From Thiopseudomonas denitrificans (GTDB lineage Bacteria > Pseudomonadota > Gammaproteobacteria > Pseudomonadales > Pseudomonadaceae), in assembly GCF_002866065.1 (NCBI RefSeq), contig NZ_LNJZ01000009.1, forward strand, positions 62,001 through 126,000: 64,000 nt of DNA. The letters run 5' to 3'. This document shows positions 54,358-63,503 of this stretch, one piece after another. The position numbers and the translations under genes are program-made. The notes under the pieces are model-generated. The model was given only the letters and a program-made list of their open reading frames with translations. It was not told where the DNA came from and made no database searches. The number at the start of each line of letters is the position of its first letter. The first letter of the stretch is position 1.

Positions 54358-54627
54358 AGAGTCCCTGCCATCCTAATTGTTGTTTGTGTCGAGTATAGCC
54401 AGTAAAAGCAAAAGGGAAGCACGCCCTTGGTCTAATGTCGAGTTTTCATCTGCAGCAATCCATGCACAACCAGGCCCATCCCTGCATCCACAAAACGCCA
54501 ACCCGCTCACAAACATGCCATAACGCCAGCCACTCATCCCCCGTCAGTGACCGGCTGTCACATGACGAACGACAAGACAGAAGCGGCCAGGCAGGATGAC
54601 AGTCAGAAATCCCTCAGGAGAGAGATG

Positions 54628-55125
54628 ATGTTGAAAACTTCAAAAAAGACACGTGGTTTTACGCTGGTAGAGCTCATGGTCACGCTGGCTGTTCTGGCCA
54701 TAATCATAGGTATAGCCATGCCAGCCATGGGTCAGTTTACAAAAAAACAAGCTGTGCGTAGCACGGCCGACGAGCTGATGCTTAGTTTGGTCTTTGCTCG
54801 CAGCGAAGCTCTGAAAGCCGGGCACGACATTCACATAATGCCCGTCGCCGCCGGTTGGAATGTTGGCTGGTGTGCAACCCCTGACCTGACTGGCTGCAAA
54901 GACACATCTTTATTGCGTAGTTTTTCCCCCTCAGGAAAAGGGCTGGAAATCACCAACAGCAGAAGCTTCAACACCGGAAACCCAGTCACTTTTACCCCAA
55001 GGGGAATGCTCAAGTCTGGCGGTACCGATGCCATTTTCACAGTTAAAGATCCGTTGCTGTCTGACGCTGAAAGGCGCTGTATCACACTGGTCAAAACCGG
55101 ACGGGCAAGCGTCAGCGGCTGCTGA
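54628..55125 (+). CDS. fimT: Type IV minor pilin FimT/FimU (GspH family)
   Basis: The 165-residue prepilin begins MLKTSKKTRGFTLVELMVTL with PilD cleavage between Gly and Phe and Glu5 of the mature form, then a GspH-type domain with MLSLVFARSEALKAG and a Cys pair near the end (RRCITLVKTGRASVSGC). AGGAG lies 7 nt before the ATG at 54628; an adjacent ATG at 54625 is equally in frame. FimT can bind DNA in natural transformation in some species, and FimU primes pilus assembly; sequence alone does not decide which this is. It is the first gene of the minor pilin operon. The 270 nt upstream hold no gene. Confidence 0.85.
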   Translation: MLKTSKKTRGFTLVELMVTLAVLAIIIGIAMPAMGQFTKKQAVRSTADELMLSLVFARSEALKAGHDIHIMPVAAGWNVGWCATPDLTGCKDTSLLRSFSPSGKGLEITNSRSFNTGNPVTFTPRGMLKSGGTDAIFTVKDPLLSDAERRCITLVKTGRASVSGC

Positions 55126-55153: not shown

Positions 55154-55672
55154 ATGAACAGACAAAAAGGCATCACCCTGATTGAAGTTCTGGTTACTTT
55201 GCTGGTAACCACAGTAGGCTTACTCGGTTTGGCCGCTCTCCAGCTCAACGCGCTGCAGGCAACCGCCGACAGCGGACAACGTAGCCAAGCCGTGTGGCTA
55301 ATGCAGGATCTGATCGAGCGCATGCGGGTCAACCCCAGGGCCAGTGATGGCCAATACCTGCAGGCTGTCACCTGCACCACAACACCGCAACAATGTGCCC
55401 CTACTCCCAACGAAACAAATTCGGTCGCCTGTTCAGCCGAACAAATGGCGTACTTCGATCTATGGGAAACCCAATGTCGCTACAGCAGTAACAATAACGA
55501 GATTTACAACAGCCGTGATGCCCTGCTACCTGCCGGCAGCCAGCCGGGCATCATCAGCTTGGCACAAGAAACCAACTCGGATGTTTTCAGAGCTACTGCT
55601 ACATGGTTCTACAAAGGTGGGTCCAGTCACACCAGCTCTGGTATCAACACTCCACAGGAGATCCGCAGATGA
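55154..55672 (+). CDS. pilV: Type IV minor pilin PilV
   Basis: The 172-residue prepilin starts MNRQKGITLIEVLVTLLVTT with cleavage between Gly and Ile, followed by GLLGLAALQLNALQATADSGQRSQA, the conserved PilV/GspI-like helix. Four cysteines (about 79, 86, 98 and 112) should give periplasmic disulfides. It is cotranscribed with fimT 28 nt upstream and overlaps pilW by 4 nt. PilV is part of the minor pilin priming complex with PilW, PilX, FimU, PilE and PilY1. Confidence 0.9.
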   Translation: MNRQKGITLIEVLVTLLVTTVGLLGLAALQLNALQATADSGQRSQAVWLMQDLIERMRVNPRASDGQYLQAVTCTTTPQQCAPTPNETNSVACSAEQMAYFDLWETQCRYSSNNNEIYNSRDALLPAGSQPGIISLAQETNSDVFRATATWFYKGGSSHTSSGINTPQEIRR

Positions 55673-56490
55673 ATATCCAGTCACGTTTCCAGCGTGGATT
55701 ATCCCTCGTGGAGCTAATGGTTGCACTAGCCATTGGCATGGTTTTAATTGCAGGTTTTCTGCAAATTTTTCTTTCGGTCCGCAGCACTTACTCTACGAAC
55801 GAAGCTGCCTCAAGAACACAAGAAAACGGGCGCTTTGCTCTGGAATTTCTTTCCGAGCATGCACGTATGGCCGGATACCGCGACCCCAAGCATCTTGACC
55901 GCCCTCTGCCAATCATGCCTCCTACAGGTAACGGCTGCGCATTTTCCAGTGGTACCAAAAGCGCTTTTTGTACCGAGGAACGCGGAATCGTTTCCAGCCC
56001 GGATAATGGTGATGAAACTGGTGACCGCATTGCCTTCACTTACCAGCCACCACTGGACTCCAGCGGAAAACGACTCGACTGTGCAGGCAATGAAGTAACC
56101 GATGCAGATGGGGTCATTATTAACACTTTCACTACCCGCGCCACTGAATCTTCGAGCGGACTTGCCTGCCGCAGCATCTATGATGACGGGACCACACTCT
56201 CCTCAGGATACACCGAGCTGGTAGATGGTATTGATGCCGTGCAATTCCAGTATGGGCTAATGTCACCCACCGGTTTCATCCATCAATATGTAACAGCAGA
56301 TAACGTACCCAACTGGTCCGATGTCGGTGCTCTACGTATTGCCGTGCTGGCCAACTCTATAAGTACGGTCACCCCGCCACCACCTGACAAGGACTACTAT
56401 CTACTAGATGCCGGGCCCTACAACTTCAGTGACGGCAAGATACGTCAGGTTTTTACCACTACCGTATACCTGCGTAACAGCATTCAATAG
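55669..56490 (+). CDS. pilW: Type IV minor pilin PilW
   Basis: The 273-residue prepilin starts MNIQSRFQRGLSLVELMVAL with cleavage between Gly and Leu and Glu5 present. The PilW/GspJ-like region follows: ENGRFALEFLSEHARMAGYRD, GCAFSSGTKSAFC, ELVDGIDAVQFQYG and LRIAVLANS. The start ATG overlaps the pilV stop (ATGA), with AGGAG 8 nt upstream; a longer frame from 55603 has no pilin signal. GC content is visibly lower than in neighbouring housekeeping genes. Confidence 0.92.
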   Translation: MNIQSRFQRGLSLVELMVALAIGMVLIAGFLQIFLSVRSTYSTNEAASRTQENGRFALEFLSEHARMAGYRDPKHLDRPLPIMPPTGNGCAFSSGTKSAFCTEERGIVSSPDNGDETGDRIAFTYQPPLDSSGKRLDCAGNEVTDADGVIINTFTTRATESSSGLACRSIYDDGTTLSSGYTELVDGIDAVQFQYGLMSPTGFIHQYVTADNVPNWSDVGALRIAVLANSISTVTPPPPDKDYYLLDAGPYNFSDGKIRQVFTTTVYLRNSIQ

Positions 56491-56502: not shown

Positions 56503-57042
56503 ATGAACAATCTTCACAATATTCATTCAAACCGTGGCTCTGCGCTGGTAATGTCGATGATTTTCCTGCTGGTACTGACCATTGCCGGCGTCACCGCCAT
56601 GCGCTTTGCTACCCTGGAAGAAAAAATGGCTGCCAACAGCCAGGCCAGCGCCCATGTGTTCCAGCAGGCACAAAGTGAAATTCGCACACAGCTCAAACAT
56701 CTGGCCACGGCCGCCGGGCGCAATCAGCTGAATAGTCTGGATTATCCGACCATGCCCAAGGAAGCCAATTCCACCACACTCAAATACATGCCTGAAACTG
56801 CAAGCCAGCGCGAATATCTTGCTGTTGCCTCCACTGAAACCTCCACCAACTTGATCTCCAATATCAATGACAACCGTCAGATCCGCTTTGTACGTGATGG
56901 CCATTGCGGGGACGGTTCCAGCATCGGCCTATTCATCTGCATCGACTTCGAAATTGAGGTCGAAGCGGCAGTGGGTAGCGGCGCACAGACTCACCAGGCA
57001 CAGGGCTTTACCTTCAAGAACAACGTTGCGGACGGAAACTGA
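56503..57042 (+). CDS. pilX: Type IV minor pilin PilX
   Basis: The 179-residue protein starts MNNLHNIHSNRGSALVMSMI then FLLVLTIAGVTAMRFATLEEKMAANSQ, the PilX N-terminal pattern in which the Gly-Ser cleavage site and the missing Glu5 are usual. The rest is a GspK-like helical and disulfide-containing domain with HCGDGSSIGLFIC near the C-terminus. It lies 12 nt after pilW and 1 nt before the next gene. PilX interacts with PilY1 in the tip complex in related bacteria. Confidence 0.88.
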   Translation: MNNLHNIHSNRGSALVMSMIFLLVLTIAGVTAMRFATLEEKMAANSQASAHVFQQAQSEIRTQLKHLATAAGRNQLNSLDYPTMPKEANSTTLKYMPETASQREYLAVASTETSTNLISNINDNRQIRFVRDGHCGDGSSIGLFICIDFEIEVEAAVGSGAQTHQAQGFTFKNNVADGN

Positions 57043-57043
57043 C

Positions 57044-57376
57044 ATGAAGAAGAATATTTTATTTGCACTACTTGCAATCGCAGCACTGAGCACCACCGCA
57101 ACACGGGCCGAAGAATCCGGCCATGTCAACGCGGTTGAATACGAACGCTTGATCGTCAACTGGAACCCCAGTGGTACCCGTCTGGCCCGGGTACTGGCTT
57201 ATGGCTGTCAAACCTGCGCACCAGCACGCTTTGAAATTCATCAAAATACCGAACTAGAAGGAGAGGACGGCAGCCCGCTGGATATTGAGTTCCTGAAAAC
57301 CCGGGTGGACTGGGCCGGTACGGTACAGACCCTAGAAGGCCAAACCGATAGCATTTATAAAATCATGCTGCACTGA
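57044..57376 (+). CDS. Small secreted protein in the minor pilin operon (110 aa)
   Basis: A 110-residue product with a clear signal peptide (MKKNILFALLAIAALSTTAT, cleaved after TRA) and a mature part with ESGHVNAVEYERLIVNWNPSG, GCQTCAPARFEIHQN and a hydrophobic terminus. The CxxC could form a disulfide or bind a metal. I do not recognise the family. Pseudomonas aeruginosa has an unrelated-looking small secreted PilY2 between pilY1 and pilE; this one sits instead between pilX and pilY1, 1 nt after pilX and 25 nt before pilY1, so it is surely in the operon and may help tip assembly, by inference. Confidence 0.75.
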   Translation: MKKNILFALLAIAALSTTATRAEESGHVNAVEYERLIVNWNPSGTRLARVLAYGCQTCAPARFEIHQNTELEGEDGSPLDIEFLKTRVDWAGTVQTLEGQTDSIYKIMLH

Positions 57377-57401: not shown

Positions 57402-60400
57402 ATGAAACACTTTCAACTCAAGCCAGTAGCTCTTGCAACAGCCGCTTTTCTGTACGCCAGCGCAAGTTTTCAGGTCGCGATCGCTGAAGACACGGAAATC
57501 TATGTACCCAAGGACATTCCGGCAGACCAGCAAGTGCGTCCCAATATCCTGCTGGTGCTAGACACTTCTGGCAGCATGTCTACTACAGTTACAGGGACGT
57601 CACCAAAGAAATCGCGTATTGAAGTTCTTCGCGAAGTGGTGCACGACCTTGTAGGTACTTTAAAAAACCAAAACGTCAACTTGGGCTTCATGCGCTTTCA
57701 CGGCAGTGATGGCGGGGCTGTTACAAAAGCGGTCGAGCACCTCACAGCAGATAATGCAGCAGCTTTCCTTCAAAAAATTGATGATACAATCAAGGACGGG
57801 GGAAACACCCCCATGTCTGAAACCTATTATGAATCATATCTCTACCTAGCCGGAAAACAACCATACTGGGGCAAGTATGGCACCAACCAGAGAAATGGAA
57901 CCGATAGAAATGCTTTAACAAATGCAACAAAAAATGGCACATGCTCTACCGCTAACAACTGCCAATGGGTATACAAATCGCCCATTACACATAGCTGCCA
58001 AAAAACACACATCGTTTATATCACCGATGGAGCTCCGGTAAGCGATAACAGCTCAAATACCTCCATTCGTAATTTACTGGAAAAGACCTCTCCGCAAGGA
58101 AATCAGACCAACCCTGTCTGGAAAAAGAGCACTTGCAACTCCGGAAACGGAGAATGCCTGCCGCATCTCGCCGAGTATATGTACAACCAGGACATAGCAG
58201 CAGAAAATGGCCTGCCGAAAGGTTTTGACGATCCAACAGGACGCAAACAAAACATCACCTCCCACTTCATCGGCTTTGCTCTTGACTTGGCGCTACTTAA
58301 AAATGCTGCCGATGCAGGCGGTGGAAAATACTACACCTCCAACAACGTCAGCGGCCTTGTCGATGCGCTCCAGTCCATCATTGTCGATATTACCGCCGAC
58401 AACACCACCTTTGTCGCGCCCAGTGTTGCGGTTACTGCCTACAACAACTTCGGCTTCCGTGACGAACTGTATTACGCCCTGTTCCGCCCTTCCGAGGGTA
58501 GCAACTGGCCGGGCAACGTAAAGAAATACAAACTGAAAAGTACCGATGCTGACGGTAAGCCCGTTACTCCGCTGATTGTGGATCGCAACGGTACCCACGC
58601 CATTGATCAAACCACCGGTTTCTTCAAGGAAACCTCGTCCAGTTTCTGGAACACCGTTGTGGATGGTGAGGATGTCAGCAAAGGCGGCTTTGCCGCTCGC
58701 CTGCAACCCGGTACCCGTAAAATCTACACTTGGTATGGCACCGACAAGAAAGCCGGCAACCCGGGTGCCGCCGAAACCTTGAAAGTGTTTTCCAGTAACG
58801 GCACCCTCAACACGACCACCACCAATACCAGCAATATCAGCAACACCATGCTGGGTGTTAATAGCTCAGGCGATCGCACCAAAGTGCTCCGCTGGATTCG
58901 TGGCTATCAGGAAGATAGTGACAGTGCTGCACGCTATGCTATTGGCGATATATTGCACAATGAACCTCGCCTGATTGCTTATAAGACCGATGAGAACATT
59001 GAGCGTGCTGAAGGAGAAAACTCTAAAGAGGAAGTTGTCATTTTTGTCGGCACCAATGAAGGTTTCATCCACGCCATTGATGCAAATACCGGTGACGAAA
59101 AATTTGCCTTCCTGCCCAAGGAGCTGTTGTCGGTACCCAACAAGTACCGGCAAAACAACGTAGGCTACAACAACAAAGCCTACGGCATGGATGGCTACTT
59201 CACCGCTCTCACCGAATACGGCTCACGCCTGTCGGACGACACCCGTGTCGCCAGCAAGGTAAACCTGTACGCAGGCATGCGCCGTGGTGGCAGCAACTAC
59301 TATGCACTGGATGTGAAAGACCTGAGCACTCCCCAGTTGAAATGGGTACTCAAGGGCGCATACAAGGACAACTATCGCGACCTGATCAACCAGAACAGCG
59401 ATGACATCTATCGTCCGGGCGGTGCCAACAGTGAAACCACCAGTGGCTTTGAACGCCTTGGCCTGACCTTTTCCGCAGCCAAGATCGGCAAGCTGAAAGT
59501 GGGTGGCACCACCAAGGACGTTCTGGTATTTGCCGGTGGCTATGATGCCAAGCACGACGTCGTCGGCAACAACGTGCCCCGCAATGACGAGGTCGGCAAC
59601 GCCATCTACATTGTAGATGCAGACAGCGGAGAGCTGTTGTGGCGTGCCTCGGGCAATAACGGTCGCACACAATCCAGCCTTGCCAACAGCATGCAACTGG
59701 CCAGCATGACCAACAGCATGCCGGCCAGTCCGACCATCATCGATATCAACGGCGATGGCCTGATCGATATAATCTATGCCACCGACTTGCGTGGACAGAT
59801 TTTCCGCTTTGATATCACCAGCGGCAATGTCAACAGCATCAACGGACACCTGTTTGCCCAGCTGGGCGGTGCAGATGCCACCAACAACCGCCGTTTCTTC
59901 AACAGCCCAGACGTTGCCCTGATCCGTGACCGGGGCCAGAAGCCCTACTTCACTATTTCGGTAGGTAGCGGTTTCCGTGAAAGCCCGCTGAATGAACAAA
60001 CCGATGACCGCTTCTACATGATCCGGGACACCTACGTGACCCAGTCCCGCTCTTCACTGGCCACACCGCCCGTCATCACCGAAAGCGACCTGACCGACGT
60101 ATCCGGTCTGGACAGCAGCGCCGCCAACACCGAAGCTGCCTATGCCCGGATTGCCGAGCATCAGTCCAAAATTGATGCCCTGGAAGCTGCCGTCCGTCAA
60201 AAAGAGCAGGAGTTTGAAGACCATAAAAATAGCATTGGCTATACGGCCGAGCACAACGCCTATCTGGATGCTATGACAGCCGCCAACGATCTGCAACGGG
60301 ATATCGATGGAATCATCCTGAGCGCCTATCCGGCATTCGACCCCGAGAATTACACAGAGGACGGGTATTACAACAGCAACTACTTTGCAAATCATGTTGA

Positions 60401-61592
60401 TGAAGCAGCACAGCAGGCCAATTATCAAAAAGCCATTGCCGGACTACAAGCTGCTATCAACAAGCTGGAAACTGACGGTAACGTGCCTGATGCCAAACTT
60501 CTGGCACAACACTATGAGCTCTTGCTTGCTTCGCAGCAGATACAGCAAAACTCTGCTAAAGAGCTGCTGAAAAAAGAAAACCTCGTACTGTACGGGCATG
60601 CCAATCCAGAACTGACACCAGAGCTAATTGCAGAAATCGAGAGTCAGTTTGGCAATCCGGGAATTGCCTATGAAAACTATGGCGACTTCTCTGACCTTGC
60701 CGAACTCGAGCTGGATTCCAGGATTGCAACATCATATGAAGCCCATTTAATCAAACCAGAGGTGCTTTTCCGAAAAAACCTCATTGAAAACAATCTCGCG
60801 GGATTGCTGACAGCACTGGATGCAGACCCACTCGATTTAACGGATATCACTAGCAATCTACCAACGATATTAACAGGTACTGAGCCAGAGCCGGACCTTG
60901 TCAACCTGCTTGAAAAAAACCAGGAAACCATTCTGGATGAACTTCAAGCAACTGCTGATAACTTCAGCAATAAGGCAAGTGATATGCAAGAAAAAGCTGA
61001 CCAACTGGTAGCTGTCCAAGGCACGGCAAATACTCATAAAGCAGCCGCCGATGCCTTGGAAACCGGCTTCCAGCCTTACCTTGATGCCATCGAAGCCGCT
61101 TATGAGGCAACCCGCGACCCCAACACCGGAATCTACGCTTGGCGTGTCAAAATCAATGACGAGTACAAATCGCTTGATCTGGACGGCGACACCATGAGTG
61201 ACGAGCAGAAAGCCCACCTGCTGAACAGCGACGGCTTCATGCTGCGCCTGCCCCGTGGCGAGAAAGTCCTGGCGGACTCGATCTCCTATAGCGGCACCGT
61301 GCTGTTCTCGACCTTCTCGCCCCGTGGCGAAAACATTTCCGACTGCGGTTCCGACGTAGGCGTGGGCCGCACATACGGACTCAGCCTGCGTACAGCGGAA
61401 GGAGTCTTCACCACCGAAATCGGTGGTGATACCAAATACGTCCGCAGCATGGTCAACAAGCAGGCCGGCATACCGCCAACTCCGGTGATTCTGGTCACTC
61501 CGGAAGGCACTGAAGGAGGCCTGCACGACGGTATCTACACCACACCCAACGACAGCCCCATCAACCCGACCTATTGGAGGGAGGAAGAATGA
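57402..61592 (+). CDS. pilY1: Type IV pilus tip adhesin PilY1 with large helical insertion
   Basis: The 1396-residue secreted protein has a signal peptide (about 1-29), a von Willebrand A domain (about 45-330) with MIDAS DTSGSMS (54-60), and a PilY1-type beta-propeller from about 420. Calcium-loop sequences are DINGDGLID (781-789) and DLDGDTMSD (1259-1267). Between about 905 and 1235 lies a helical, Ala/Glu/Asn-rich stretch ([40 protein letters not shown]) that interrupts the propeller before [11 protein letters not shown]; Pseudomonas aeruginosa PilY1 is 1163 residues. GC falls in the vWA and insert regions. Its stop overlaps pilE (ATGA). Confidence 0.92.
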
Positions 61593-61981
61593 AAAAGCAA
61601 CGGGGCTTTACCCTGATCGAAGTCATGATCGTAGTGGTCATCGTAGGGATTCTGGCTTCCATCGCCTACCCCAGCTACCGCAACTACGTGTTGCGGGCTA
61701 ACCGTGCCGAAGGAGCTGCGCATATCCTGCGCGTGCTCCAGGCACAGGAACGTCATCACTCACAAAACATGACGTACACCACAACGCTGAGTGATCTTGG
61801 GATCAATCCAGGCTCGGAAACAGGAAGATATACCATTACAGCCACTGGTCTGGCTGCATGCGGCGGTCAGACCATCGCACAATGCGTCACCGTGACGGCA
61901 ACAGCCGCAACAGCCGATCCGGTCTGTAACACAATGAGTATGGATTCACGCGGAGCCAAAAACCCAACAGCATGCTGGTAA
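61589..61981 (+). CDS. pilE: Type IV minor pilin PilE
   Basis: The 130-residue prepilin starts [20 protein letters not shown] with Gly-Phe cleavage and Glu5, followed by [21 protein letters not shown] and a C-terminal disulfide loop ([17 protein letters not shown]). In P. aeruginosa PilE closes the fimU-pilVWXY1Y2E operon and forms part of the minor pilin priming complex. GGAGGGAGGAAGA gives a very strong ribosome site at the overlap with pilY1. A strong terminator follows. Confidence 0.92.

Positions 61982-62341: not shown

Positions 62342-62348
<7 letters not shown>
62013..62348 (-). CDS. GIY-YIG nuclease-superfamily protein, YhbQ-like
   Basis: The product of about 111 residues has the GIY-YIG domain: [21 protein letters not shown] (the GIY and YIG equivalents are YVYLVR and YCGI), then [51 protein letters not shown]. 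It is close to YhbQ, whose function is not firmly known. The start is uncertain: the frame opens with TTG at 62348, which overlaps the start of the asparaginase-like gene, and neither this nor a TTG at 62327 has a good ribosome site. The gene is divergent from the asparaginase-like gene and convergent with pilE. Confidence 0.85.

Positions 62349-63503
<1,155 letters not shown>

Follow-up and report, generated by a model that had tools for sequence, protein, structure and literature searches.

A predicted helical insertion in the propeller half of the type IVa pilus tip adhesin PilY1 of Thiopseudomonas denitrificans, shared by a single clade of PilY1 proteins

Analysis of the window (the whole stretch of 64,000 nucleotides of T. 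denitrificans DNA studied here) identified an intact minor-pilin operon on the forward strand. This operon encodes a minor pilin of the GspH/FimU type (54577..55122; PF12019, PF07963), a pilV-like minor pilin named from the gene order (55154..55672; PF22150, PF07963), pilW (55669..56490; PF16074), pilX (56503..57042; PF14341), a small secreted-type protein of 110 amino acids with an invariant pair of cysteines (57044..57373), pilY1 (57402..61592) and a pilE-like minor pilin whose gene overlaps the pilY1 stop (61589..61981; PF16732, PF07963). The last of these pilins scored 67 bits with PF16732 (ComP, the DNA-uptake-sequence receptor; cut-off 27.3). Further along the window, a frame of 160 amino acids (62342-62824) aligned with asparaginase profiles over roughly their first half only (TIGR00519 positions 4-149 of 337, without reaching the cut-off). 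Two PilT-family frames of the genome scored above the curated cut-off, and the pilus machine is therefore probably functional. No match to 16S rRNA was obtained in this genome, despite the 100% completeness rating of the assembly. The GlnD protein scored above the cut-off of NF001366, a model of Pseudomonas type, which in combination with the gene order is suggestive of the Pseudomonadaceae.

The reading frame of pilY1 is intact and encodes a type IVa pilus tip adhesin of 1396 amino acids, the only copy of a PilY1 of this type in the genome. Its identity was supported by its position within the minor-pilin cluster, by the profile of the C-terminal propeller domain (PF05567, 57 bits against a cut-off of 28.1) and by a sequence match to the Pseudomonas aeruginosa PilY1 propeller (3HX6, E 7.6e-11), with which it shares protein family, propeller, calcium site and minor-pilin operon. 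The VWA profile PF13519 scored slightly below its cut-off on the N-terminal part (24.6 bits against 27), where a MIDAS-like motif of the VWA domain, DTSGSM, is present (57561..57578). The NCBIfam profile for the PilC tip adhesin of Neisseria type (NF040838) reached 28.8 bits, against a curated cut-off of 350. Alignment with 3HX6 and a motif scan located the equivalent of the propeller calcium site at residues 781-789 (59742..59768, forward strand), where the sequence DINGDGLID conforms to the pattern Dx(D/N)xDGxxD. In P. aeruginosa PilY1 this site is placed on blade IV in the accessible text of the relevant study (PMC11891296).

Alignment boundaries in 21 insert-type PilY1 proteins, along with spacing relative to non-insert PilY1 and 3HX6, delimited a putatively helical insert of 374 amino acids (residues 902-1275; 60105..61226, forward strand). 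Comparison of related loci showed it to be flanked upstream by a conserved RFY...TESDLTDVS segment (starting RFYMIRD) and downstream by SDGF...GEKVL, and the same flanking motifs were identified in all 21 insert-type proteins, marking one fixed site. The distance from RFY to GEK is 416 amino acids in the window PilY1 against 78 in 3HX6, confirming the large insertion in the propeller-encoding half of PilY1 that had been proposed in an earlier note on this DNA. Among the non-insert PilY1 proteins inspected, this distance was 53-86 amino acids overall (53-69 across 15 distinct loci, represented by 17 rows of which two are repeats; 61-66 in another 11 loci, all from the same family; and 86 in L053) and it was also short in further readable partial matches, the distance being unreadable for loci L088 and L142. 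A profile of 18 non-insert proteins aligned with 3HX6 across the insert site (E 1.4e-28), at which 3HX6 has 35 residues between the flanks, compared with the 374 found here, and no comparable insert. The short spacing in these proteins, set against the 416 residues of the window PilY1, indicates that the extra length arose where a short loop, lying downstream of the calcium site of blade IV, became expanded. The net excess between RFY and GEK is approximately 335-360 amino acids; the earlier estimate of about 230 extra residues holds for the difference in length of the whole protein and not for the insert site. The coordinates proposed in that note (60110-61110) began within 5 bases of the start defined here and ended approximately 115 bases short of the end.

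The insert was found to be enriched in alanine (14.2%), glutamate (9.4%) and leucine (11.8%) relative to the rest of PilY1 (7.3, 4.3 and 7.0%, respectively), while asparagine, which had also been named as abundant, was not enriched (7.5% against 7.4%). Cysteine is absent from all 21 inserts, which range in length from 358 to 432 amino acids, except for one of 684. Three segments could be distinguished. The N-terminal root (residues 902-960; 60105..60281, forward strand) is 58-59 amino acids long in 21/21 and contains a conserved turn with an invariant glycine and threonine; the middle (residues 961-1200; 60282..61001, forward strand) is variable, being 203-273 amino acids long, with 524 in one relative; and the C-terminal root comprises residues 1201-1275 (61002..61226, forward strand). 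Mean pairwise identity among the 21 proteins fell from 62% in the propeller ahead of the site to 40% in the N-terminal root (first 59 residues) and 28% in the middle, then rose to 45% in the C-terminal root and 54% after the insert. The insert of 684 amino acids (L121, genome G146), nearly double the usual length, contains a long Ala/Thr-rich stretch; internal duplication was rejected as its origin, as self-comparison gave Ala-rich similarity at many lags and no clean repeat.

Searches with Pfam gave no match above cut-off for the 374-residue insert, nor did any of 11 inserts, searched together with their flanks, yield one at E 0.01, and comparison of the insert profile with solved structures yielded no relative. 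Two AlphaFold2 predictions were obtained, each with an alignment of 2 sequences: residues 497-1396 (pLDDT 33.4, pTM 0.27) and the insert alone (pLDDT 49.9, pTM 0.37). Both gave helices with breaks throughout the insert and strands mainly outside it, in agreement with the helical character originally proposed, at low confidence; these pLDDT values are too low for placing the helices, and the arrangement of the helices in the models is not trustworthy. Hydrophobicity along the window insert peaked at the 3.5-residue heptad period (0.10, against 0.05 +/- 0.01 for shuffled sequences), with no such peak in the propeller, which is a coiled-coil-like sign. Averaged over the 21 inserts the peak was weaker (0.07-0.08 against 0.05). 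It is plausible that the insert forms a separate coiled-coil lobe standing out from the propeller.

A second calcium-type loop of the form DxDxDxxxD had been described as following the insertion. The corresponding string, DLDGDTMSD (residues 1259-1267; 61176..61202, forward strand), was instead found to belong to the final part of the insert itself. As none of the 20 remaining inserts contains it, it was rejected as a second calcium site. Regarding the propeller site itself, the pattern Dx(D/N)xDxxxD present in the window PilY1 was absent from 13 of the 21 insert-type proteins. Nine of these 13 sites were read and have Gly, Thr or Ser at the third position (e.g. DITGDGLID), suggesting that the calcium switch may be altered in the insert-type PilY1 proteins that lack the pattern.

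The distribution of the insert was investigated using a profile (A2) built from 11 inserts plus short flanks. Within the family to which the organism belongs, matches were obtained in 21 of 398 genomes, representing 7 of 19 genera; the insertion, which is absent from most PilY1 proteins, is not species-specific, contrary to what had been suggested. The match extended over the whole profile in 20 of the 21 genomes and was divided in G146 into two pieces that jointly cover it. Wider, overlapping samples of the order (293 genomes), class (369) and phylum (299) contained no full-length match outside the family, those found being the genome studied here (G000, all three samples) and G038 (order and phylum samples), both members of the family. 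Nearly all other matches in these samples were limited to the first 29-64 model positions, which correspond to the flank. A frame of 718 residues in another genome of the order (L090, G230) matched profile positions 145-268 only (E 1.8e-4), a similarity between coiled coils that may be due to chance. A profile search of this kind can miss inserts of unrelated sequence at this site; the loci read showed no such case. No relative was found on viral contigs, and plasmids gave only ordinary relatives of PilY1, at 26-29% identity, which stop short of the insert. Three other genomes of the genus, all fragmented drafts of 87-90% completeness, gave no match to A2. One genome of the genus (G002) was observed to encode a different, non-insert PilY1 (L059), followed by a secreted-type protein of 115 amino acids. 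This protein lies at the position occupied by pilY2 in P. aeruginosa.

A phylogenetic tree was constructed from the 400 residues preceding the insert site, with 49 rows (21 insert and 28 non-insert proteins). Loci without the RFY motif or with too few upstream residues were omitted, these including L053, L058, L059, L066, L068-L075 and L077. All 21 insert proteins formed one clade with a support of 100/100, the simplest reading of which is that the insert was probably gained once. This clade adjoins two non-insert PilY1 proteins (L129/L164 and L133/L165) that come from the same class but from outside the family, and it is separated from the alternative PilY1 type found in its own family. These neighbours have the same small protein before pilY1 and differ in having no insert, with 67 amino acids from RFY to GEK. 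The spread of the insert across the family is patchy, and two genera (g11 and g14) each occur in more than one place within the insert clade, which points to exchange or to old diversity with many losses.

These observations are best accommodated, with slightly more confidence than doubt, by an exposed helical arm, specific to one clade, on the propeller of the tip adhesin, arising from a single loop expansion and serving in binding or spacing. A short PilY1 propeller loop would have expanded once, in an ancestor, into a helical arm of approximately 370 residues that marks one clade. Its helices would pack as coiled-coil-like hairpins or as a bundle standing out from the propeller, to which the conserved roots would anchor it, and the variable middle would be the exposed part, touching surfaces, partners or phages, or setting how far the tip reaches and how it is spaced. 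Either role, binding or spacer, would be in keeping with the proposal made in the earlier note.

An alternative is that the insert works inward, contacting the minor pilins or the channel of the secretin while the pilus is being primed, and so controls assembly or retraction instead of engaging outward targets. The insert lies in the C-terminal half of PilY1, a region that other studies have linked to contact with the minor pilins, as stated in the accessible text of a survey of myxobacterial PilY1 (PMC13190605), and all 21 insert-type operons retain both the small Cys-pair protein that precedes pilY1 and the surrounding pilin genes. This small protein belongs to no Pfam family. A model built from 11 of its sequences found 10/10 of those held out and none in the non-insert loci then compared, and within the family its profile and that of the insert select the identical 21 of 398 genomes, the small protein thus being a marker of the operon lineage within the family. 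It was also identified in six of 11 loci from other families (E 8.8e-13 to 1.2e-4), none of the six carrying the insert. It is therefore older than the insert, and the idea of a dedicated partner was rejected. That the same operon layout occurs without the insert in other families counts against an inward role, as does the middle of the insert, whose evolution is much more rapid than that of the propeller, which would not be expected of a conserved surface for docking. An inward role is consequently considered unlikely, while retaining some force.

The insert might also be an almost passive linker or low-complexity expansion that is tolerated and does little more than leave the fold undisturbed, as its middle is Ala-rich and variable in length and one relative has grown to 684 amino acids with Ala/Thr-rich stretches. 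To set against this, the frame is open in all 21 insert-type proteins, the roots are conserved with invariant positions, and the insert has been kept since the base of the clade. The ratio dN/dS of the insert could be computed for seven of nine close pairs (0.035, 0.062, 0.089, 0.096, 0.139, 0.146 and 0.287), lies far below 1 in all seven and is higher than the propeller value in six of them; the insert is thus kept by purifying selection, under looser constraint than the propeller. The two remaining pairs were saturated at silent sites and include the only close pair of the window copy, for which selection is therefore judged from the other pairs. A passive linker is accordingly regarded as improbable. 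That ordinary propeller blades had been misread as an insertion, a reading for which no support was found, is contradicted by the alignment of both flanks with non-insert PilY1 and 3HX6 and by the all-helical prediction for the insert, and can be dismissed as very improbable indeed.

For the exposed helical arm, the closest parallel is the finger of Acinetobacter ComC, likewise a lineage-specific insertion in a PilY1-type tip adhesin, the gene cluster of which is described as an exchanged cassette in the accessible text of that study (PMC10374093). According to the same text, the finger, of approximately 90 residues, is inserted in the N-terminal vWFA domain, its deletion impaired adhesion, twitching and DNA uptake, and the C-terminal domain varies little (PMC10374093); the present insert differs in lying in the C-terminal domain. 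The 2026 myxobacterial survey also stresses N-terminal variation, and the words insertion, coiled and helical are absent from its main text as accessible (PMC13190605). No report of a comparable insert in the PilY1 propeller was found among the open-access papers searched. As far as these accessible texts go, published work on PilY1 diversity has placed lineage differences in the N-terminal half and treated the C-terminal propeller as a conserved platform (PMC10374093, PMC13190605). More tentatively, and with rather more doubt than is attached to the arm itself, PilY1 may possess a second place for lineage-built binding modules, in which the variable recognition part takes the form of a helical arm built on a propeller loop, either in place of the VWA head or in addition to it, and is inherited patchily with its own lineage of minor-pilin operon. 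A conserved insert of domain size within the propeller platform offers a clean, removable element for probing propeller-side contacts of the pilus tip, and its presence can serve to mark one lineage of minor-pilin operons.
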